From assembly GCF_003254475.1 (NCBI RefSeq), contig NZ_QFYQ01000001.1:558001-622000 (forward strand): 64,000 nucleotides of DNA. The letters are read 5' to 3'. This document shows, piece by piece, positions 9,646 to 17,987 of this stretch. How positions within the stretch are numbered: position 1 is the first letter of the stretch; each line of letters opens with the position of its first letter. The notes under the pieces were generated by a model. That model ran no database searches. It saw only the letters and a program-made list of their open reading frames with translations, and was not told the origin of the DNA. Both the position numbers and the translations under genes were made by a program. The DNA comes from Phenylobacterium soli (GTDB taxonomy: Bacteria > Pseudomonadota > Alphaproteobacteria > Caulobacterales > Caulobacteraceae).

Positions 9646-10102
9646 ATGGCCGCTCGCGTCGTCACCCTGGCGTTCCAAGGCGTCGAGGCGGTCCGTGTCG
9701 AGGTGGAGGTGCAGCTCACCTCCGGGGAAGCGGCCTTCATCATCGTCGGCCTCGGCGACAAGGCCGTGACGGAAAGCCGGGAGCGGGTGCGCGCCGCCTT
9801 CGCCGGCCTCGGCCTCGCCTGGCCCGGCCGCCGCATCATCGCCAACCTGGCGCCCGCCGACCTGCCGAAGGTCGGCAGCCACTATGACCTGCCGATCGCC
9901 CTCGCCGTGATGGCGGCGATGGGGGTCATCCCGCCCGACGCGCTCGAGGGCTGGGCGGCGATGGGCGAGCTGTCGCTCGACGGCCGCATCGCCGCGGTGG
10001 CCGGCGCCCTGCCCGCCGCCATGGCCGCCGGCAGCCTCGACCTCGGCCTCATCTGCCCGGAGCCCTGCGGCGCCGAGGCCGCCTGGGCGGGCGAGACCCG
10101 TA
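9646..10102 (+). pseudogene. comM: comM (yifB) fragment 1: N-terminal domain of Mg-chelatase-like AAA ATPase
   Basis: ComM/YifB is a hexameric helicase that promotes branch migration during natural transformation. This piece encodes about 152 residues of the N-terminal domain, beginning MAARVVTLAFQGVEAVRVEV, then IIVGLGDKAVTESRERVRAA, IANLAPADLPKVGSHYDLPI and LICPEPCGAEAAWAGETR. Homology stops abruptly near 10100. A foreign stretch with an in-frame stop (10228-10230) follows. About 60 codons expected before the Walker A region are missing, so this is a deletion as well as an insertion. The gene is almost certainly non-functional. Confidence 0.92.
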
Positions 10103-10264
10103 GCCGGACACGCCACGATCCTGGAAGGTCATCGTCTCGTCCAACTCCAGACCATGGTCAGCCGCGTACTTGGTGGCCATGGCCCATTGGCGGCGGAAGC
10201 TGTCGCCCCGGGCTTGCTCAGGGGTGCTGAAGCGGACGTAGCTGTAGGCTCTTCGAGAGGTCAT
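10102..10264 (-). pseudogene. Remnant: N-terminus of a large serine recombinase (integrase)
   Basis: Reading on the minus strand from the ATG at 10264, about 54 residues match the start of resolvase-type recombinases: [20 protein letters not shown], then DSFRRQWAMATKYAADHGLE and TMTFQDRGVSGY. The Ser in YVRFST is the expected catalytic nucleophile. Similarity ends exactly where comM sequence begins (about 10102). The fragment lacks most of the catalytic domain and the whole DNA-binding part, so it is dead. It marks a former serine-integrase island in comM. Confidence 0.8.
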
Positions 10265-10290
10265 ACAGCCTCGTAGCAGTGGGGTCTCCA

Positions 10291-10583
10291 CGCCACAACC
10301 TGCTGTTCGTCGGCCCGCCGGGATCGGGCAAGTCGATGATGGCCCAGCGGCTGCCGGGCCTCTTGCCGCCGCTGACCTCCGAAGAGCTGCTCGAGACCTC
10401 GATGGTCCATTCGGTGGCCGGCCTGATCGCCCGTGGGCAGCTGACCCGCGCCCGGCCGTTCCGCAGCCCCCACCACTCGGCCAGCATGGCGGCCCTCACC
10501 GGCGGCGGTCTCAAGGCCAAGCCGGGCGAGGTCAGCCTGGCGCACAACGGCGTCCTGTTCCTCGACGAGCTGCCGGAGTTCTC
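10291..10583 (+). pseudogene. comM: comM fragment 2: Walker A/B part of the AAA domain
   Basis: The fragment resumes at [20 protein letters not shown] (Walker A) and continues through [38 protein letters not shown] and [16 protein letters not shown] (Walker B). It is then cut by the transposon at the codons for EFS. The reading phase equals that of fragment 1, but foreign sequence with a stop separates them. The last bases (10576-10583) are the left copy of the transposon target duplication. Confidence 0.92.
10576..10583. repeat. Left target-site duplication (GAGTTCTC)
   Basis: GAGTTCTC flanks the transposon on both sides (10576-10583 and 17346-17353). An 8-bp duplication is the norm for IS1595. 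The longest direct repeat at the junctions is 13 bp (10573-10585 and 17343-17355), because target and terminal bases coincide, so the exact duplication length cannot be settled from sequence alone. Confidence 0.8.
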
Positions 10584-10606
10584 CGGAATTATGTAGCAAA
10601 CACACC
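10584..10606 (+). repeat. Left terminal inverted repeat of the IS1595-type transposon
   Basis: The first 18 bases, CGGAATTATGTAGCAAAC, are identical to the reverse complement of the right end; bases 19-23 match at four of five positions. This is the expected substrate of the IS1595 transposase. Confidence 0.9.
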
Positions 10607-10787
10607 TAGGTCCTAACGACTGCCGCCAGAACGGCGGCGCACATCACCGGATTTGAGCCGAGCTACACGTGCCCTCAAAGCGGGGGCCCAGATGAATAAG
10701 TTCGTAATGCCTTTGGGGAACTCCAAACGTGCCAACGAACTGCAGCAAGCGTTGCCGTTGCGGCCGGAGTCTGGGCAGGATCGCGGC

Positions 10788-11471
10788 ATGCAGCGGATCA
10801 TTCGCTTCGTCCGCGAGGAGGTGTTGGCGGTCGTCCTCATCGTCGGGGGCGTAGCCGTTTTCATCTACAACGCAGTGAGCGGCGTCCTGCAGTTGCGGGA
10901 TTGGGGCATCCCTGGCTGGGGGTGGCAGATAATCTCTGCCGCCTTGGTGGGGGCGGGCCTTTTGGTCGTGGCCTATCGGCTCCATCAGCGCGTCGAGGCC
11001 GCTGAGCAAGTTTTGCGGTCTGCTCCGGAAGCCCGCGTCGTGGCGCCCCCGCGGTCCGGAACAACCGAGCCCACCACAGCACCAGCTCCAGTGGTCACAC
11101 CCCGCCATAATGCGGCGGACGGGCGCATTGCTCTCGCACTAGTGGACGCCAACCGGCGAAAGATCATCGCAGAGTGGGGGAAGGTCGGCTCGTTCGAACT
11201 CTGGGAGGCGGCAAGCCTATTTGCAGAAGAATTGCCGCCAACGAATGCGCTGTTCCCACGGAGCGACGCTGCCAACGCCAAGTTGGCCATGCTCAAGGCC
11301 GCAGTTCATGACGGAGAACTTCCACGGGCTCCGCTAAGCGGGATTGACGCCACCTTGGCCAAGTTCGGCAGCATCAGCATAGACGACCACACACGGATTA
11401 GGAGGAGCGATCTGGTCGAATACGCGGAGGCGAAGTGCCAGCGCCCAGCCTTCCTATTCCCAGAGCCCTAA
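10788..11471 (+). CDS. Hypothetical two-helix membrane protein (transposon passenger)
   Basis: I do not recognise this protein. From the ATG at 10788 (AGGA about 8 bases upstream) it has 227 residues. An N-terminal basic start MQRIIRFVREE is followed by two transmembrane helices, VLAVVLIVGGVAVFIYNAVS and WGWQIISAALVGAGLLVVAY. Next come a Pro/Thr/Ala-rich linker and a soluble C-terminal domain with SFELWEAASLFAEELPPTNA and LAKFGSISIDDHTRIRRSDL. An upstream ATG at 10653 would extend it by 45 residues. It stands alone near the left end of the transposon. A membrane-anchored effector or sensor is possible but unproven. Confidence 0.65.
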   Translation: MQRIIRFVREEVLAVVLIVGGVAVFIYNAVSGVLQLRDWGIPGWGWQIISAALVGAGLLVVAYRLHQRVEAAEQVLRSAPEARVVAPPRSGTTEPTTAPAPVVTPRHNAADGRIALALVDANRRKIIAEWGKVGSFELWEAASLFAEELPPTNALFPRSDAANAKLAMLKAAVHDGELPRAPLSGIDATLAKFGSISIDDHTRIRRSDLVEYAEAKCQRPAFLFPEP

Positions 11472-11731
11472 TCTTCCACCCAACTCGACCTCGGCGTCGG
11501 CTGGTGGCTCACCAGTTTGCGCCAGAGAGAAATGAGCATCTCGATCCGGATGCACGTTGACTCTTTTGTGATTCGGAGTCTGCGCGGTTGATTCGTGCCG
11601 AATCGCTCGCTAGTATTCCGGAGCGTGCGACACGGTGAATCTCCAGGCCGTGGCCGGATTGGTTAATAGCTGATCCAATTGGCATTATGTGGGGGAATAC
11701 TGGAGTCCCCACCGCGCGGCTTATGGACGGC
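11472..11731. other. Non-coding gap inside the transposon with small dyads
   Basis: No convincing gene is seen in this 260-bp stretch between two converging passenger genes. It holds a perfect dyad GATTCG-TGC-CGAATC (11590-11604) and a looser GACTC...GAGTC pair just upstream (about 11559-11580). These might serve as a terminator or protein-binding site. Confidence 0.3.
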
Positions 11732-12133
11732 TCATGCCGTCCATTTGTCTTTTCGGAGGACCGGATATTTTCGAGTCTTCCGATTCACTTCCAAATTGTT
11801 CGTTTTGTAAAACGTGCAGACATAGAGTCGTCGCGTGTCTTTCGAACACTTTACTGCAGCCTGAAACCAGCCCCGCGGGGTTAGGTGCATGAACAGAATG
11901 TGGTTCGGTCGGTCCAGCAGCGCGCGACCATAGTCAACCACGTCAAACAAGTAGCCGAAGTCATCGTGCCTCGTCCCGTGCTGGGCAAAGGCCTTCATCA
12001 CATAATCGTGGCGATAGAAGACCTTATCTGACGCGGCATTGAGATGCGCGACCATATCGGCCGAAAGCTGCGCGACAGCGATCTCTTTGCCCTGCCCGTG
12101 CCGCAGGAAAAGCTTCCAATCCCTAGGGTACAT
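11732..12133 (-). CDS. Hypothetical protein, possibly nuclease-toxin-like (transposon passenger)
   Basis: The 133-residue product from the ATG at 12133 has balanced, non-shadow-like composition: MYPRDWKLFLRHGQGKEIAV, HLNAASDKVFYRHDYVMKAF, DDFGYLFDVVDYGRALLDRP, HILFMHLTPRGWFQAAVKCS and RRLYVCTFYKTNNLEVNRKT. The order of a helical N-part and a beta-rich C-part with conserved-looking His, Thr and Lys is loosely like the phage-associated Barnase/EndoU/ColicinE5-RelE-like (PBECR) nucleases, but this is a weak impression. The ATG at 12169 would add 12 residues. No neighbouring antitoxin is evident. It is transcribed towards the 260-bp gap 11472-11731. Confidence 0.5.
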   Translation of the reverse strand: MYPRDWKLFLRHGQGKEIAVAQLSADMVAHLNAASDKVFYRHDYVMKAFAQHGTRHDDFGYLFDVVDYGRALLDRPNHILFMHLTPRGWFQAAVKCSKDTRRLYVCTFYKTNNLEVNRKTRKYPVLRKDKWTA

Positions 12134-12308
12134 CACACGACAACTACGCGATGACTCAGTCCGACTCAATTCGGCCGCCGCAAGAGCCTCGGGCTTTGAC
12201 GTCGGGAGAGAGAGCGATCCAATTGAGGCGCGGGCGGCAGTCTCCGCTGAGCCTTGGCCATACCCCCCCTTTAAGCGTTCGTAAGCAAAGCTCAGTCAGC
12301 CTGCGCCC

Positions 12309-12728
12309 ATGGCCACGCTTCCGCGATGGAAATTGGCGGAGATGTATCGGCGCAGGCTTGCGCGCTATGAGGAGACTATGGCCAAGGCGGAGGAGTTGCG
12401 CCGCGAACTCCAAGAGATGGGAGCTGAGCTTATAGCGCGAGGCTTTCCCCTTAGCCCCCGAGAACTCTCGCCGGCGCCGCCAAAACGAGAGAACAAGCCC
12501 CCTGGGTATTGGTCTCAAGCCGCGCTCACAGTCCTGCGCAAAGCGACTGGGCCAATGACAACGAACGAGGTGGCGGAGGCAGTTCGCGCTATGCGCGGCG
12601 TCGACTCCACCGACACACTCACCATCGCCCGTATCGTAGCCGCCGTGGACAGCGCACTTAAGAGACGGGCAGAGAGTGGGCTCATCCTCTCTGAGGGCGA
12701 GAAGCCGAAGCGATGGCGGCTCCCGTAG
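12309..12728 (+). CDS. Coiled-coil plus winged-helix-like small protein A (transposon passenger)
   Basis: The 139-residue protein begins with an amphipathic coiled-coil stretch, MYRRRLARYEETMAKAEELR and RELQEMGAELIARGF. A linker follows, then a probable winged-helix segment: WSQAALTVLRKATGPMTTNE, VAEAVRAMRG, RIVAAVDSALKRRAESGLIL and EKPKRWRLP. The phrase GPMTTNEVAEAVRAMRG parallels GPVTSRDIARRLMTERG in the gene at 16784-17278, so the two share an architecture. Function is unknown; DNA binding is inferred. Its 3' end overlaps the convergent transposase by 47 bp. Confidence 0.6.
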   Translation: MATLPRWKLAEMYRRRLARYEETMAKAEELRRELQEMGAELIARGFPLSPRELSPAPPKRENKPPGYWSQAALTVLRKATGPMTTNEVAEAVRAMRGVDSTDTLTIARIVAAVDSALKRRAESGLILSEGEKPKRWRLP

Positions 12729-13749
12729 CCCTCCTACGTTTGCGCCAGGAGTAGCCCACCCACTCCGACGGGGCGCGCCGTATCACGGCGCGACACATGG
12801 ATTCCCAGCGAGCTTTGTCGCTGCATAGACGGTGGTTGTGTCTCCACGCGAGTTCGTCCCCATATCGTGAAAAGTACGGCCCGGCGACCTTGTGGTAGAC
12901 ACCAATCTGTGAGCGACGCATTTCGGAGAAGAAGCTTTCAGCCTGATTAGTGTTCGCTTCTTGCGAAACATACTCTTTGCTGTGATTGACGGTCTTCACG
13001 TCAAAGAATGCATGCAGATCATTCCACCCGGGCATCGAGTCCGTGTAGACTGTAGCTGACCGATCAACGTGTTCGAGAATGAACGGTTTGGCGTCGCTCT
13101 CCCGCTTAACGACGGTAGTTCGAACGCGACCGCCGCGTTCCGCGGCGACGACCAAGACTTTCTTCCGCTTCGGCGAGCGATATGGATACTTGCGATGGTC
13201 TTTGGCGTCGGCCCTGATGTTGCGCGGCCGAATATGGCCGCCGAACTCCGCTCCGTCGATTTCGACGGAGCCGCTTAGCTTGGGGATGTCGCGGGTCGCT
13301 ATGAACTCACGCAGCATGTGAGCCATCCGCCACGCAGTTCGATAGTTCACCTGAAGAACGTGGCTTAGATGGACGGCGCTTGTTCCGGCGGGGCTTTGAC
13401 TAAAGATGGCGATCCCGCAGAGTATCTTGTTGAAGCTTAGCTTTCGCCGGTGAAACGGAGTTCCAGTCGTGAGGCTGAATCGACGCGCGCACCGTTTGCA
13501 TTTGAATTCGGCGCGAACTTTGTATTCATGCGCGGCATCGCATTGGCATCGGGGGCAGACCGGCCGCCCATCTGTCGCAGCAAACAGTATAGCTCGAAAC
13601 TGCTTTCGAGCCTCTTCCTCGGAGAGGCGAGCGATACTCAATGGACTTAAGTCCCGTGAGGCCGCGGATAGGCGATAGTTCTGCGCCAACGTGCATCCGT
13701 AGATCGTTATCCGTCGATTTACGGACGAGACGGGCGTTATCAATGCCAC
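12682..13749 (-). CDS. IS1595-family (ISXO2-like) transposase
   Basis: The 355-residue protein carries the family zinc ribbon (CPRC at 65-68 and CKRC at 84-87). The DDE-type core follows, with Asp in SVEIDGAEFGG (165), Asp in VYTDSMPGW (237) and the NTNQAESFFSEMRR segment supplying the Asn/Glu position (268-271). The typical ending GVYHKVAGPYFSRYGDELAW RHNHR is present. The first 35 or so residues before SIARLSEEEARKQF are not typical, so the true start may lie downstream. The protein looks intact, and together with perfect ends it suggests a recently active element. Confidence 0.9.
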   Translation of the reverse strand: MALITPVSSVNRRITIYGCTLAQNYRLSAASRDLSPLSIARLSEEEARKQFRAILFAATDGRPVCPRCQCDAAHEYKVRAEFKCKRCARRFSLTTGTPFHRRKLSFNKILCGIAIFSQSPAGTSAVHLSHVLQVNYRTAWRMAHMLREFIATRDIPKLSGSVEIDGAEFGGHIRPRNIRADAKDHRKYPYRSPKRKKVLVVAAERGGRVRTTVVKRESDAKPFILEHVDRSATVYTDSMPGWNDLHAFFDVKTVNHSKEYVSQEANTNQAESFFSEMRRSQIGVYHKVAGPYFSRYGDELAWRHNHRLCSDKARWESMCRAVIRRAPSEWVGYSWRKRRRATGAAIASASRPQRG

Positions 13750-13997
13750 CCGCTACGTGTATCCTATCCCACGACTCCAATATCGTGACACGTGGCACTA
13801 TCTATACATGCGATAAGGTGTCATTATTTACTGGCGGCGCCCGATAAGGTGACGCACGCACAACATTTCGTGATCGTTGCGCGCGTTTGTCCCATGCATG
13901 ACCCCACCGGGGCGCAACATGTCGCCATGCTGTCGCCTTAGCTGTGCTATGCGGTCGCTGACGCGTCGTCTCCCTGTCGCAGGAATTCAAGTTAGCC
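13750..13997. promoter_or_regulatory. Divergent regulatory gap with direct repeat CGATAAGGTG
   Basis: This 248-bp gap separates the transposase and Xre start codons. The 10-mer CGATAAGGTG occurs twice in the same orientation, at 13811-13820 and 13842-13851, 31 bp apart (about three helical turns). This is the kind of arrangement used by a dimeric regulator. The Xre protein encoded immediately downstream is the obvious candidate ligand, possibly repressing both itself and the transposase (inference). Confidence 0.4.
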
Positions 13998-14747
13998 ATG
14001 GCTTCACTGAGAAAGCGAAGGAGCCAAGCAGTGCAGTGCGATGCGGAGAAGATTGTGAGCCTTCGGAAAGCCCGCGCCATGACTCAGGAGAAGCTCGCGC
14101 TGCTCGCGCGGGTGGAACGGAGAACGGTCCAGCGCGCCGAGGCCGGCGCCGCCGTCTCGGCCGAAACGTTGGCGGACCTCGCGGCTGCCTTGGGAGTACC
14201 GCCAGACGCGCTTCTTGCACGGGCGGAGCCAGGCGAGGACGAAAACCAACAGGAGGGCTGGGTTACCGCTCGACCTGTCGAGTCTGGGCGCAAACTGCTC
14301 GAAGATCTCAAGGCGGCGCGCTTGGCCAGCCTGGAGTATGAAGTCGAGCCCACCCGTGAGAATCTTTCTCTGCTCAAGAATGTCGTGAGCGACTTGGCGC
14401 AGCACCTACCGCCCGATCCGTGGGACGAGGCGCCGATCCACGAGCCGCGGCAGTTTCCCTCGGTGGTGCAGCAGTTGGAGAGCATCGCCAATTTGAACGA
14501 GCGCCTCAGGGAGCTTGAGGCGGAGGGGCTCGCCTTGTTCATGGCTCAGCACGTTGAGGCCGCGGTTATGCCGATCTACGGCCTCGACGAGGGACACTAT
14601 TACACGACCCACGGCCAGCGGCCGGAGCTGGTTCGAGTTGTGCGCCTCGTGTTGGGTCGTGCGTCCGCCGACAAGATGAAAGTCCCGCGTCGTCGCGAAT
14701 GGCCTGTTCAGATCGTCGAAGAACTCGAAGACGAGGTGCCATTCTAA
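13998..14747 (+). CDS. Xre-family regulator with unknown C-terminal domain (transposon passenger)
   Basis: The 249-residue protein has an Xre helix-turn-helix at about residues 17-72 (EKIVSLRKARAMTQEKLALL, RVERRTVQRAEAGAAVSAET, LADLAAALGVPPDALLARAE). A 170-residue C-terminal part of unknown type follows, with DLAQHLPPDPWDEAPI, FPSVVQQLESIANLNERLRE and MPIYGLDEGHYYTTHGQRPE. It is transcribed divergently from the transposase and convergently with the GIY-YIG/DUF2130 operon. Control of transposition or of the operon is a reasonable guess. Confidence 0.75.
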   Translation: MASLRKRRSQAVQCDAEKIVSLRKARAMTQEKLALLARVERRTVQRAEAGAAVSAETLADLAAALGVPPDALLARAEPGEDENQQEGWVTARPVESGRKLLEDLKAARLASLEYEVEPTRENLSLLKNVVSDLAQHLPPDPWDEAPIHEPRQFPSVVQQLESIANLNERLRELEAEGLALFMAQHVEAAVMPIYGLDEGHYYTTHGQRPELVRVVRLVLGRASADKMKVPRRREWPVQIVEELEDEVPF

Positions 14748-14760
14748 GGAGCGGGCGTGG

Positions 14761-14985
14761 CTACTGCCGAATGTTGCGATCTCCGGCGGCGAAGTTGAGC
14801 TTCCATACAAGCTTCTCCGCCTTCGCCGCGGTAAGGCCCATCTGAGGCGCTCGCCCTAGGACGACGGTGTGACCAGTCCAAATATCAACCACCGACATGC
14901 CCTCCTCCGTGCGCTCCACAGCATAGCGCGCCCGTCGGAACGCAGGGGGGGCCATCTTAGCGGCGTCGGTCATGCGCTTGCCCAC
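14761..14985 (-). CDS. Small unknown protein, last gene of the GIY-YIG/DUF2130 operon
   Basis: The 74-residue product (GTG at 14985, or ATG at 14973) includes FRRARYAVERTEEGMSVVDI, WTGHTVVLGRAPQMGLTAAK and AEKLVWKLNFAAGD. The GTG shares one base with the DUF2130 stop codon, so translation is probably coupled. The sequence looks like a small beta-rich domain followed by a helix. No family is recognised. Confidence 0.6.
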   Translation of the reverse strand: MGKRMTDAAKMAPPAFRRARYAVERTEEGMSVVDIWTGHTVVLGRAPQMGLTAAKAEKLVWKLNFAAGDRNIRQ

Positions 14986-16250
14986 TATTCAGGAGATTCA
15001 AGCAAGAGCACGTCCAACGCAGCGATCTCCTTCAGGCTCTTGCCCGCAATGCCTTGAAGATCGCCGTACATCCCGGCGGTTGACTCGATCACTGCGCGAA
15101 TTTGCTCCTCGCGTTTCGCCCACAGCCGGGTCATCGTTGTCCGCTCCTTCTGCAGATCGGCCTGCATCTCTGTAAAGCGTTCCACGATGGCCTCGACGCG
15201 GTGCCTGAACCGCGACCCCGTAAGATATGCATAGATCATCTCGGTCTTGGTCTGCTGGCCTTCGCTCGCCTGCCGGGCCGCGGCCAGCGCAATGATCGAC
15301 TCCCGCAATGCCAATGCGACCGGGACGGCGCATTTCGGCTCAGCCACCCAGACGCCGTCCACCAAGTCGAAGTTCGTGAGCATGTCTTTTGGAAGGGCGT
15401 GAGAGATAATCAGGGAGACGTCGGCGTTCGCCGCGCGTTGGTCGCCGCGGACTTTAGTGAGCCATCCATCGCTCCAGTTTTTGGTGCGCTTGATCTCCCA
15501 CAGGATCGAGCCGCACACTTGACCGCCAGGGCCGCGCACACGCTGGATGAGGTCGCCGCCGAACTCCCCCTTTGGAACGGCGTCGATGTCATCGTGAGGG
15601 AACTTCGACCTCAGCAGGCTTTCAAGCTCTAGCTCTTGGACCTCGCCTTGGAGCTGCTGCGACCCTTGCTCCGCTTTGCGCTTAAGGTCCTCGATCTGGC
15701 GCTGCATGGAGGCGATCGTCTCCTCCTTCTCCCGAACCTTCAACTGGAGGGCCTGCTCAGCTTCGAGCTTGGCTTTGTCCCGCACTGAGCCAAGCATTTC
15801 TTGGACTCGTTTTTCGATGGTCAGGTCGAGTTCACGCTTTTCGTCATCCAGCGCGCGTTGCTTCTTCAAAAGGTCGGCTTGCACCTGCTGCGCTTCGGCG
15901 AGCTTGGCTTCCCGCTGCTGCAGCACGGTCTGCAGATCGGCGATGGAGCGATCCTTTTCCTGCAAGTCGGTTTCGATGAGCGCGCGAGCCTTGCGCGCCT
16001 CTTGCTCGGCGATCTTGGCCCTAGCTTCCTCCACCTTGGCGCCGACCAATTCCTCGACTTCGGCACGCTGCTGGGCAAGCGCCTCACGTTCTTTCTCCAG
16101 GGCAGATTCGCGCGCCGCAACTTCCTCATCCTTCTTGACCAACTGCGCTTGGAATTCTTGGCGCGTAGCAGCGATCAACGGAGCGGCAAGGGATTCGGTG
16201 AGCTTAATTTCGTGTTTGCAGTTCGGGCAGGTGATCGTCGGCTCGCTCAT
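14985..16250 (-). CDS. DUF2130 protein: coiled coil plus PD-(D/E)xK-like core (transposon passenger)
   Basis: The 421-residue protein starts with a short CPNCKHEIKL knuckle (only two Cys). A long charged coiled coil follows (about residues 35-205), then the DUF2130 domain. There, a candidate Asp in FGGDLIQRVRG (233) followed by ILWEIKRTKNW (E252, K254) gives the D...ExK signature of PD-(D/E)xK nucleases, and a Gln/Asp-rich stretch KVRGDQRAANADVSLIISHA comes next. The catalytic reading is my inference; DUF2130 itself is recognised from the overall pattern. It lies 16 bp downstream of the GIY-YIG gene and is coupled to the 74-residue gene behind it. Confidence 0.82.
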   Translation of the reverse strand: MSEPTITCPNCKHEIKLTESLAAPLIAATRQEFQAQLVKKDEEVAARESALEKEREALAQQRAEVEELVGAKVEEARAKIAEQEARKARALIETDLQEKDRSIADLQTVLQQREAKLAEAQQVQADLLKKQRALDDEKRELDLTIEKRVQEMLGSVRDKAKLEAEQALQLKVREKEETIASMQRQIEDLKRKAEQGSQQLQGEVQELELESLLRSKFPHDDIDAVPKGEFGGDLIQRVRGPGGQVCGSILWEIKRTKNWSDGWLTKVRGDQRAANADVSLIISHALPKDMLTNFDLVDGVWVAEPKCAVPVALALRESIIALAAARQASEGQQTKTEMIYAYLTGSRFRHRVEAIVERFTEMQADLQKERTTMTRLWAKREEQIRAVIESTAGMYGDLQGIAGKSLKEIAALDVLLLESPE

Positions 16251-16266
16251 CAGAGTCCTCCCATTC

Positions 16267-16800
16267 TCAACTCAGGCGCAGGTGCGGAAAATGCTGCGCA
16301 CACCAATGGCGACAGTCCCCGGGTCTGGCGCTACCCAGGGTGATGTTGAAGCATGTCTTACCTACCCGCATCCATTTTCGCTCGGCCTCTCGGAATTCAT
16401 CCGTTACGGCGTGTCCCGTCCACGTCTCCGCGATCAACCACTCGCGAATGCGCTGACTCAGAATTCCGATGTCTTCAGCAGGTGACCCCGCAATGATGTG
16501 GAAGCGCAGCTCCGCGGCCAGAATCGTGCTCACGAGGTTGCTCGATCGGTAGCCGCCCAGGTGCGAATGGATGCGCGCCCGCAGGTTTAAAGTGGAGCCC
16601 AGGTAGAGGGCATCTAGCCCGCCCACCTTCAGACGGTGCTCTATCTGATGCGCTGAAAAGCGGAGCGAGCGCATGATATCGGCTCCCCTTGGCGACAGGA
16701 AAACGTAGACGCCGGGCGCCTCTGGAATCGCTCTAGGGTGGCGCTTGATGACGGCTGTCGGGGCTATCTCTAGAGGATGCGGGTTAGCCATGGCGGTCAT
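16267..16800 (-). CDS. GIY-YIG nuclease-family protein (transposon passenger)
   Basis: The 177-residue protein has the full set of GIY-YIG positions: GVY at 30-32 (PEAPGVYVFLSPRG), YLG at 66-68 (LDALYLGSTLNLRARIHSHL), Arg at 74/76, the acidic residue at about 120 (QRIREWLIAET) and a terminal Asn at 152 (KTCFNITLG). It could cut or nick DNA as a stand-alone nuclease. I used the ATG at 16800, which overlaps the end of the upstream winged-helix gene; an ATG at 16791 is equally possible. It shares an operon with the DUF2130 gene, which may encode a second nuclease. Confidence 0.8.
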   Translation of the reverse strand: MTAMANPHPLEIAPTAVIKRHPRAIPEAPGVYVFLSPRGADIMRSLRFSAHQIEHRLKVGGLDALYLGSTLNLRARIHSHLGGYRSSNLVSTILAAELRFHIIAGSPAEDIGILSQRIREWLIAETWTGHAVTDEFREAERKWMRVGKTCFNITLGSARPGDCRHWCAQHFPHLRLS

Positions 16801-17278
16801 CCAGACGGATGACCTCCGCCCCGGTCGCCAACGTCCAGCCCTGAAGGCTACCCTCAGCGGGGGCGTTCCGAACAAGTCCTCGGTGCCTCTGCACTCTGAG
16901 ACAGGCGCAGACCCGTTTCACCATTATGATGGAGAGTTCGCGGTCCTCGGGGTTCAATCCGCGCTCCGTCATAAGACGACGCGCGATGTCCCTCGACGTG
17001 ACCGGCCCGTCGGCGCTGCGCAGGGTCCGGAAGACGATACGAGTGACCTCTCCCTTGAATGCGGCGTGTCGTGGAGGGACGGGCTTGGACCTGATGTCGC
17101 CGACGTCGACAGTCGGGTCGAACACTCGAATGGTCGCGTCGAGATGGTCCAGCTCAGTGATCAGATGGCGCAACTGGAGCTGCGTGTGCTCAATGCGACC
17201 GGCGATCTCGGCGCGCTTTCCTATCAGCGCGTGCAGAACGTTCGGGTGCTCGGCGTCTGGGGGAATGAGATCGTTCAT
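16784..17278 (-). CDS. Coiled-coil plus winged-helix-like small protein B, first gene of the operon
   Basis: The 164-residue protein begins MNDLIPPDAEHPNVLHALIG, followed by a coiled coil (RIEHTQLQLRHLITELDHLD). A probable winged-helix part comes next: EVTRIVFRTLRSADGPVTSR, DIARRLMTERGLNPEDRELS, IIMVKRVCACLRVQRHRGLV and GWTLATGAEV. It is the promoter-proximal gene of a four-gene minus-strand operon close to the right end of the transposon, and its stop overlaps the GIY-YIG start. It resembles in layout the protein at 12309-12728. A regulator or DNA-recognition subunit is inferred. Confidence 0.65.
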   Translation of the reverse strand: MNDLIPPDAEHPNVLHALIGKRAEIAGRIEHTQLQLRHLITELDHLDATIRVFDPTVDVGDIRSKPVPPRHAAFKGEVTRIVFRTLRSADGPVTSRDIARRLMTERGLNPEDRELSIIMVKRVCACLRVQRHRGLVRNAPAEGSLQGWTLATGAEVIRLDDRHG

Positions 17279-17322
17279 ACCCCGATGATGGGATAGAGAA
17301 CTGATTTCACATAAGAATTTTG

Positions 17323-17345
17323 GGTGCGTTTGCTACATAATTCCG
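17323..17345 (-). repeat. Right terminal inverted repeat of the IS1595-type transposon
   Basis: The reverse complement begins CGGAATTATGTAGCAAAC, identical over 18 bases to the left end, followed by one mismatch and CACC. It abuts the right copy of GAGTTCTC. Confidence 0.9.
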
Positions 17346-17987
17346 GAGTTCTCCGCGCAGGCGCTGGACTCGCTGCGCCAGCCGCTGGAGACCGGCGAGG
17401 TGATCGTCGCCCGCGCCAACGCCCACGTGCGCTATCCGGCCCGCGTTCAGCTCGTGGCGGCCATGAACCCGTGCCGCTGCGGGAACGGCGGTCCGGGCCG
17501 CGGCGCCTGCGGGCGCGCTCCGCGCTGCCAGACCGACTACCAGGGCCGGGTCTCCGGCCCGCTGATGGATCGCATCGACCTGCAGGTGGAGGCGCCGCCG
17601 GTGACCGCCGCCGACCTCGCCCTGCCGCCGCCGGCGGAAGGCACCGCCGAGGCCGCCGCGCGGGTGGCGCAGGCGCGCGCCCTCCAGGCCGCCAGGGTCG
17701 CCGACGCCGCGGGCGAGGACCGGATCAACGCCACGCCGCTGAACTGCCAGGCGGAAGGCGACTGGCTCGAGCGGATCTGCGCCCTCGATCCGCCCGCCCG
17801 CGCCCTGCTGGCCAAGGCGGCCGAGGCCGGCGGGCTCACCGCGCGGGGCTGGACGCGCACCCTGCGCCTGGCGCGGACCATCGCCGACCTGGAGGGCAGC
17901 GAGGCCGTGCGTCGCGTCCATGTGGCCGAGGCGCTGATCTATCGTCGGGTCGCACCCGGCCGCGTGGCAGCGCTCGGGGCCGCCTGA
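17346..17987 (+). pseudogene. comM: comM fragment 3: C-terminal AAA part
   Basis: The comM frame resumes at EFSAQALDSLRQPLETGEVI and VARANAHVRYPARVQLVAAM, then NPCRCGNGGPGRGACGRAPR with the conserved cysteine cluster, LMDRIDLQVEAPPVT, and the C-terminal GWTRTLRLARTIADLEGSEA with HVAEALIYRR. It ends with a normal TGA at 17985-17987. The sequence shows no further decay, which suggests that the transposon insertion is recent. The first eight bases are the right copy of the target duplication. Confidence 0.93.

Follow-up and report, generated by a model that had tools for sequence, protein, structure and literature searches.

A predicted DUF2130 coiled-coil nuclease carried by an IS1595-family transposon of Phenylobacterium soli

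Two described anti-phage systems serve as precedents for the locus discussed here. In Shield, according to the accessible part of the report (PMC10270631), ShdA is a membrane-bound DNase with an RmuC domain, which degrades DNA and defends the cell on its own, and only Pseudomonas is reported to carry it. SNIPE, as far as the available text of PMC13190303 goes, joins DUF4041 and a GIY-YIG domain in one membrane-anchored polypeptide, which acts against phages by cutting their DNA at injection. The locus lies in a 64,000-nucleotide stretch of the Phenylobacterium soli genome (contig NZ_QFYQ01000001.1, positions 558,001 to 622,000), referred to below as the window, where a 6.8-kb transposon of the IS1595 family occupies a gene of the YifB family. 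Four minus-strand genes are packed tightly at one end of this transposon:

16784..17278, minus strand: winged helix-turn-helix (wHTH) protein, probably part of the IS1595 backbone, encoded directly next to the right terminal repeat on its inner side
16267..16791, minus strand: divergent GIY-YIG-like protein of 174 amino acids (aa), an orphan (PF01541, E=0.0092)
14985..16250, minus strand: DUF2130 protein with a CxxC N-terminus, a coiled coil and a predicted PD-(D/E)XK-like domain
14761..14985, minus strand: p74, a small open reading frame (ORF) of 74 residues with a GTG start

An initial annotation had read these genes as one operon and as a candidate for an undescribed defence or mobility system. 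All four ORFs are present where it had placed them, and their tight packing was confirmed. The longest GIY-YIG ORF covers 16267-16875, with a likely start at the ATG at 16791, which gives a product of 174 aa. Counted from this start, the overlap with the wHTH stop is 8 bp; the DUF2130 gene follows after a gap of 16 bp, and base 14985 belongs both to the start of p74 and to the stop of DUF2130. The set would be co-transcribed. The reading that we favour, with middling confidence, is that of transposon cargo with a predicted coiled-coil DNA nuclease, the DUF2130 protein, which probably restricts foreign DNA; its partnership with the GIY-YIG-like protein is unproven. This corrects the view of the locus, as one of the four, the wHTH gene, most likely belongs to the machinery of the transposon.

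The DUF2130 protein and its neighbours

The assignment of the 14985..16250 product to the DUF2130 family is firm (PF09903, E=1.1e-75; 254.7 bits against a cut-off of 26.7), in agreement with the initial annotation. The family is widespread, with at least 561 matching stretches in one scan of GTDB contigs. In the accessible portions of the literature searched it is mentioned in three papers, once in each and only in tables (of a marine correlation, a vesicle proteome and cyanobacterial surface proteins), without a functional test.

The D...ExK signature, which had been noted together with the coiled coil, is conserved: D233 is kept in all 117 aligned DUF2130 proteins, and E252 and K254 in 116 of the 117 each. 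In a structure model with a predicted local distance difference test (pLDDT) score of 83, residues 196-323 adopt a PD-(D/E)XK-like fold. Both the conserved D...ExK and, by model, the core fold are traits of PD-(D/E)XK enzymes, and the model supports the picture of a PD-(D/E)XK-like fold to which a coiled coil is attached. Rather than tying DUF2130 to an unrelated function, the evidence on the family points to a nuclease. Of the two nucleases of different folds proposed for the operon, the DUF2130 protein is supported as such, and the GIY-YIG-like one is tentative. A PADLOC match of the DUF2130 protein to LmuB (2.3e-5, residues 5-212) was judged to reflect the coiled coil only, and therefore membership in Lamassu is not claimed.

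The gene neighbourhoods of DUF2130 were analysed in 116 loci, in which genes were called with a home-made gene caller. The scan covered 137 of 148 proteins of at least 90 aa encoded within 300 bp of DUF2130 (11 were excluded for size or redundancy, several of them defence-like), and it was compared with a control, not species-matched, of 137 of 164 proteins from 16 of the 20 stretches sought in genomes of the window's class. The results support the conclusion that defence families abound among the proteins encoded beside DUF2130 genes. Pfam matches included SIR2_2 (9), AAA_15 (9), AAA_13 (8), DNA_pol_A (5), OLD TOPRIM (4) and ResIII (4), none of which was among the 25 families listed for the control, the rarest of these having two members. 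With PADLOC at 1e-5, 336 families were matched beside DUF2130 versus 33 in the control, a contrast that is overstated because a single SIR2 or OLD protein is counted under many redundant models. For single models the counts were 11 versus 3 (AriA), 8 versus 1 (GajA) and 13 versus 6 (mad3), and SIR2 was matched nine times beside DUF2130 and not at all among the 25 control families listed.

Five partner clusters, each named from one representative, lie on the same strand within 100 nucleotides (nt) of DUF2130: SIR2 (9), an AAA_13 type (7), OLD (4), DrmD-like (4) and type III Res (3). The AAA_13 ATPases are presumably of the PrrC/RloC kind. At least one of the five is found at this distance in 23 of the 116 loci (21 genomic and 2 viral). 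Next to SIR2 (L017, L027, L064, L066, L073, L074, L075, L086 and L094) the DUF2130 gene stands directly upstream, with gaps from -157 to 32 nt, and eight of these nine loci also contain a cluster whose tested member is HerA. A limited literature search returned no description of DUF2130 as the third gene of SIR2-HerA-type loci.

Several observations weigh against the favoured reading. None of the five partner clusters occurs within 100 nt in 93 of the 116 loci, and most of the genome loci lack these partners also when the distance is extended to 7 kb, as 27 of 80 then have one. General ATPase families were doubled too (AAA_21 and SMC_N, 13 each beside DUF2130 versus 6 each in the control, which was not species-matched). 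A DNA polymerase A-type cluster shares the stretch with DUF2130 in 13 of 28 viral contig loci (L098-L101, L103-L105, L107-L109, L116, L123 and L124), and DNA_pol_A accounts for five of the 137 adjacent proteins. These viral neighbours suggest a role for DUF2130 in phage replication or recombination, and fit such a role as well as defence. Finally, a kinship with RmuC, judged from the alignments, appears weak: hhalign gave a probability of 20%, with the D and ExK region in register with RmuC (19 of 24 RmuC loci were aligned; L197, L199, L215, L217 and L218 were left out), and no match to Pfam RmuC (PF02646) was obtained at E<=1. Apart from the polymerases, an SNF2 cluster is present in 11 of the 28 viral loci.

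The polymerase genes and the alignment with RmuC are what favours the strongest alternative, in which DUF2130 is an RmuC-like nuclease of DNA metabolism, active in replication or recombination, which phages and mobile elements have recruited and which has no dedicated defence role here. We consider this explanation unlikely, since in 21 of 80 genome loci DUF2130 abuts a SIR2, OLD, AAA_13, type III Res or DrmD-like gene, and the controls contain few or no such partners.

If the favoured reading of DUF2130 as a DNA-restricting cargo protein is adopted, the protein would be a coiled-coil, RmuC-like PD-(D/E)XK nuclease with incoming or aberrant DNA as its substrate, and its coiled coil and N-terminal CxxC module may serve oligomerisation or contact with the target. 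It might then be regarded as a portable, restriction-type defence factor, from which both the host and the transposon would benefit. The GIY-YIG-like protein would be a second nuclease-like cargo gene, linked to DUF2130 here by close spacing only, and the wHTH protein would serve the transposon and not the cargo function. If DUF2130 does restrict DNA, many defence islands hold an overlooked component, which is testable with one gene. A bolder generalisation, which we find doubtful, is that DUF2130 is an unrecognised modular immunity nuclease with a coiled coil, able to partner any of at least five defence machines that are unrelated to each other (SIR2-HerA, OLD, AAA_13, type III restriction and a DISARM-like helicase) and paired here with a novel GIY-YIG protein in a portable two-nuclease cassette.

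The GIY-YIG-like protein and the four-gene set

The GIY-YIG identity of the 174-aa protein had been stated with more assurance than the profile searches allow. Its PF01541 score of 16.7 bits lies under the cut-off of 22.6, the protein is not among the GIY-YIG matches of the genome at E<=0.001, and a GIY-YIG profile built here from 28 genome hits gave E=0.14 when used as a hidden Markov model (HMM). With the same profile, hhalign reached a probability of 54% over 21 columns; six other proteins of the window scored no higher than 1.1%, and 30 shuffles of the protein itself no higher than 1.6%. As the hhalign value exceeds those of the controls, yet the Pfam score is below its cut-off and the HMM value is poor, the assignment appears likely but is not proven. 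The GVY, YLG, R, E and N motifs were picked out by eye, and we assume that these make up the core motif set of the family. An AlphaFold model of the protein alone was unusable (pLDDT 39.5).

The protein is an orphan in every collection searched. It was found in 1 of 289 genomes of the class, 1 of 200 of the order and 1 of 398 of the phylum, each time the window itself, and no significant match was obtained in plasmids, phages, viral contigs or GTDB contigs, the contigs having been scanned with short exact peptide patterns, by which distant kin could be missed. Two of four insignificant plasmid matches (E 3-4) are annotated as Cho and GIY-YIG, in keeping with the assignment though no proof of it.

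Neighbouring GIY-YIG and DUF2130 genes, which the initial annotation proposed to look for elsewhere, were not encountered: the single clear GIY-YIG domain in the 116 DUF2130 loci, that of L024, is located inside an SNF2 helicase (E=9.6e-16; Pfam 5.8e-12). This helicase gene (2401-5532 of L024) lies upstream of DUF2130, and the PF01541 domain falls within the C-terminal half of its product. Two weak GIY-like ORFs, one in L011 (E 0.007) and one in L060 (0.03), were not counted, and the former had no Pfam GIY-YIG match at E<=0.01. When eight other proteins of the element, including the GIY-YIG-like, wHTH, p74 and Xre proteins, were compared by tblastn (E<=0.01) with 121 other loci, none was matched; with low-complexity masking switched off and a smaller set of loci, Xre gave one weak match (E=0.008, L010). 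For the pair of GIY-YIG and DUF2130 genes, and within the reach of these searches, this is the lack of co-occurrence that the initial annotation had itself named as refuting its proposal. Because the wHTH gene behaves as part of the transposon backbone (see below) and no co-occurrence of the genes was found, the idea of a conserved four-gene system was rejected. A described system with this gene set was likewise not found in the literature searched, of which the sources are available in part and most subscription papers lay outside.

A narrower version of this idea is that the GIY-YIG-like and DUF2130 proteins form a true two-nuclease defence system, newly assembled on the transposon, in which both are mutually dependent cutters of foreign DNA. 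The 8-bp overlap upstream and the 16-bp gap suggest co-transcription, the G+C contents of the two genes are alike (60.2% and 60.0%, respectively), and SNIPE, in the available text of its description (PMC13190303), offers the precedent of an elongated defence protein that bears its GIY-YIG domain on the same chain. However, the GIY-YIG-like protein has no homologue in the genomes of the class, order and phylum, in the contigs, plasmids or phages, or at any of the 121 other loci, which makes such a system quite unlikely.

The transposon, its backbone and the remaining genes

The element and its further features are as follows:

10584..17345: IS1595-family transposon of 6,762 bp, interrupting a YifB-family gene (presumably comM-type)
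10576..10583: target-site duplication, left copy, GAGTTCTC, 8 bp, within the presumed yifB/comM-type gene
17346..17353: target-site duplication, right copy, GAGTTCTC, 8 bp
10653..11471, plus strand: cargo ORF, in part hydrophobic by eye (ORF list, Pfam scan)
12309..12728, plus strand: HARE-type wHTH gene (PF05066, E=5.5e-5, just below the cut-off)
12682..13749, minus strand: IS1595-family transposase with a zinc ribbon (PF12762, E=8e-37; PF12760, E=7e-8; NF033547)
13998..14747, plus strand: Xre-type helix-turn-helix protein (PF01381, E=1e-9), tail-to-tail with p74

The view of the gene set as transposon-borne was upheld. The transposase scores 140.6 bits with NF033547 (cut-off 75), the element is bounded by CGGAATTATGTAGCAAACRCACC at both ends in inverted orientation, with GAGTTCTC repeated just outside, and its G+C content is 59.9%, as compared with 70.8% outside. 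Once the element and one duplication are removed, the reading frame of the host gene runs across the junction, and its pieces match PF13541, PF01078, PF13335 and TIGR00368, with Mg_chelatase and TIGR00368 matched on both sides. No further copy of the CGGAATTATGTAGCAAACRCACC end was found in the genome with up to two mismatches allowed, and megablast detected no element similar at the DNA level in plasmids. Within the host gene, upstream of the insertion, a fragment similar to the N-terminal part of a serine recombinase (10049-10291, minus strand; PF00239, E=4.3e-6) coincides with a second frame break; the gene was hit twice.

According to the accessible text of PMC8101967, duplications of 8 bp are usual at the flanks of IS1595 members, which are described with a single transposase gene. 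The window element departs from the latter by several further ORFs. We take the single-gene description as a usual trait and not as grounds for exclusion, because the other wHTH-bearing elements examined depart from it as well.

These elements make it most likely, on sequence comparison, that the wHTH gene at 16784-17278 is IS1595 backbone and has no part in a cargo function. Pfam returned nothing convincing for its product, and tblastn of plasmids yielded seven records, all weak (31-35% identity), and in each the wHTH homologue has a match to an IS1595 transposase no further than about 100 bp away. Among the five records whose annotation was consulted, four have an IS1595 transposase annotated beside the wHTH gene; in the fifth (Paracoccus) it was seen by tblastn only. 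Terminal repeats were found in four plasmid elements (L125-L128) with the cores TTAGGTAGCA, TTATGTAGCA, TTAGGCAGCA and TCATGTAGCA, as compared with TTATGTAGCA in the window. In all four, which span about 1.5-1.7 kb, the distance from one repeat inward to the start of the wHTH gene is about 45-70 bp; a further plasmid record, L129, yielded no repeat pair.

A scan of the 289 class genomes for the end sequence, with one mismatch allowed, matched six genomes versus four for a reversed-pattern control, so a lone end such as that of L145 may be due to chance. The matched stretches from the other five genomes are L140-L146. L140 (E=8e-26), L141 (5e-9) and L144 (8e-7, via a plasmid relative) contain a wHTH homologue on the inner side of an end, as does L146 by eye; L142 and L143 have an end on the transposase side only, and L145 has neither gene. 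The elements in L140 and L146 measure about 3.3 kb. A small DUF6471 protein adjoins the transposase in L140, L142 and L146, and an ORF resembling a membrane protein was also noticed by eye in L142 and L146.

The second wHTH gene of the window element, at 12309, is convergent with the transposase gene and overlaps it tail to tail, an arrangement also seen in annotated IS1595 elements of plasmids; its product is a distant relative of the 16784 wHTH protein (24% identity, pairwise E=2e-6).

With the wHTH gene assigned to the backbone, the GIY-YIG-like protein could also be a selfish nuclease, associated with homing or with the transposon, and the whole set neutral cargo. Its orphan status and its position directly downstream of the wHTH gene, with the 8-bp overlap, would suit this explanation, which we nevertheless hold to be improbable: tblastn of the GIY-YIG-like protein at E<=0.001 matched none of the stretches at the related ends (L140-L146). 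It is very improbable that the p74/Xre end is a stabiliser of the toxin-antitoxin kind and DUF2130 incidental to it, for although the small ORF adjoins the Xre gene, the two are convergent and form no operon, and p74 has neither a plasmid match at E<=1 (whole genomes were not searched) nor a significant family match. An Xre gene does adjoin the set, as had been noted, but its tail-to-tail orientation with p74 does not place it on the promoter side of the four genes.

Comparison with described systems

The window proteins are members of neither Shield nor SNIPE. With Shield the DUF2130 protein has in common a coiled coil and a nuclease domain of a broadly PD-(D/E)XK-type fold, and the defence logic may be shared; it differs in having no Pfam RmuC match, in its CxxC N-terminus and in the absence of a membrane segment, as judged by eye and without a predictor. 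The likeness to SNIPE consists in the combination of a GIY-YIG nuclease with an elongated protein, whereas the GIY-YIG-like protein of the window is a separate 174-aa orphan without DUF4041, which was matched neither in this protein nor in the DUF2130 protein. Elsewhere DUF2130 genes adjoin SIR2-HerA-like loci, with DUF2130 directly beside SIR2 in 9 of the 116 loci, while no SIR2 or HerA match was found among the nine scanned proteins of the window element.

Other IS1595 elements with a wHTH gene beside the transposase share with the window element the transposase family, the zinc ribbon, the 8-bp duplication, similar ends and a wHTH gene inside the repeat. The difference lies in size and content: the window element extends over 6.8 kb and carries the predicted nuclease cargo, as against about 1.5-1.7 kb in the four plasmid elements with terminal repeats and about 3.3 kb in L140 and L146.
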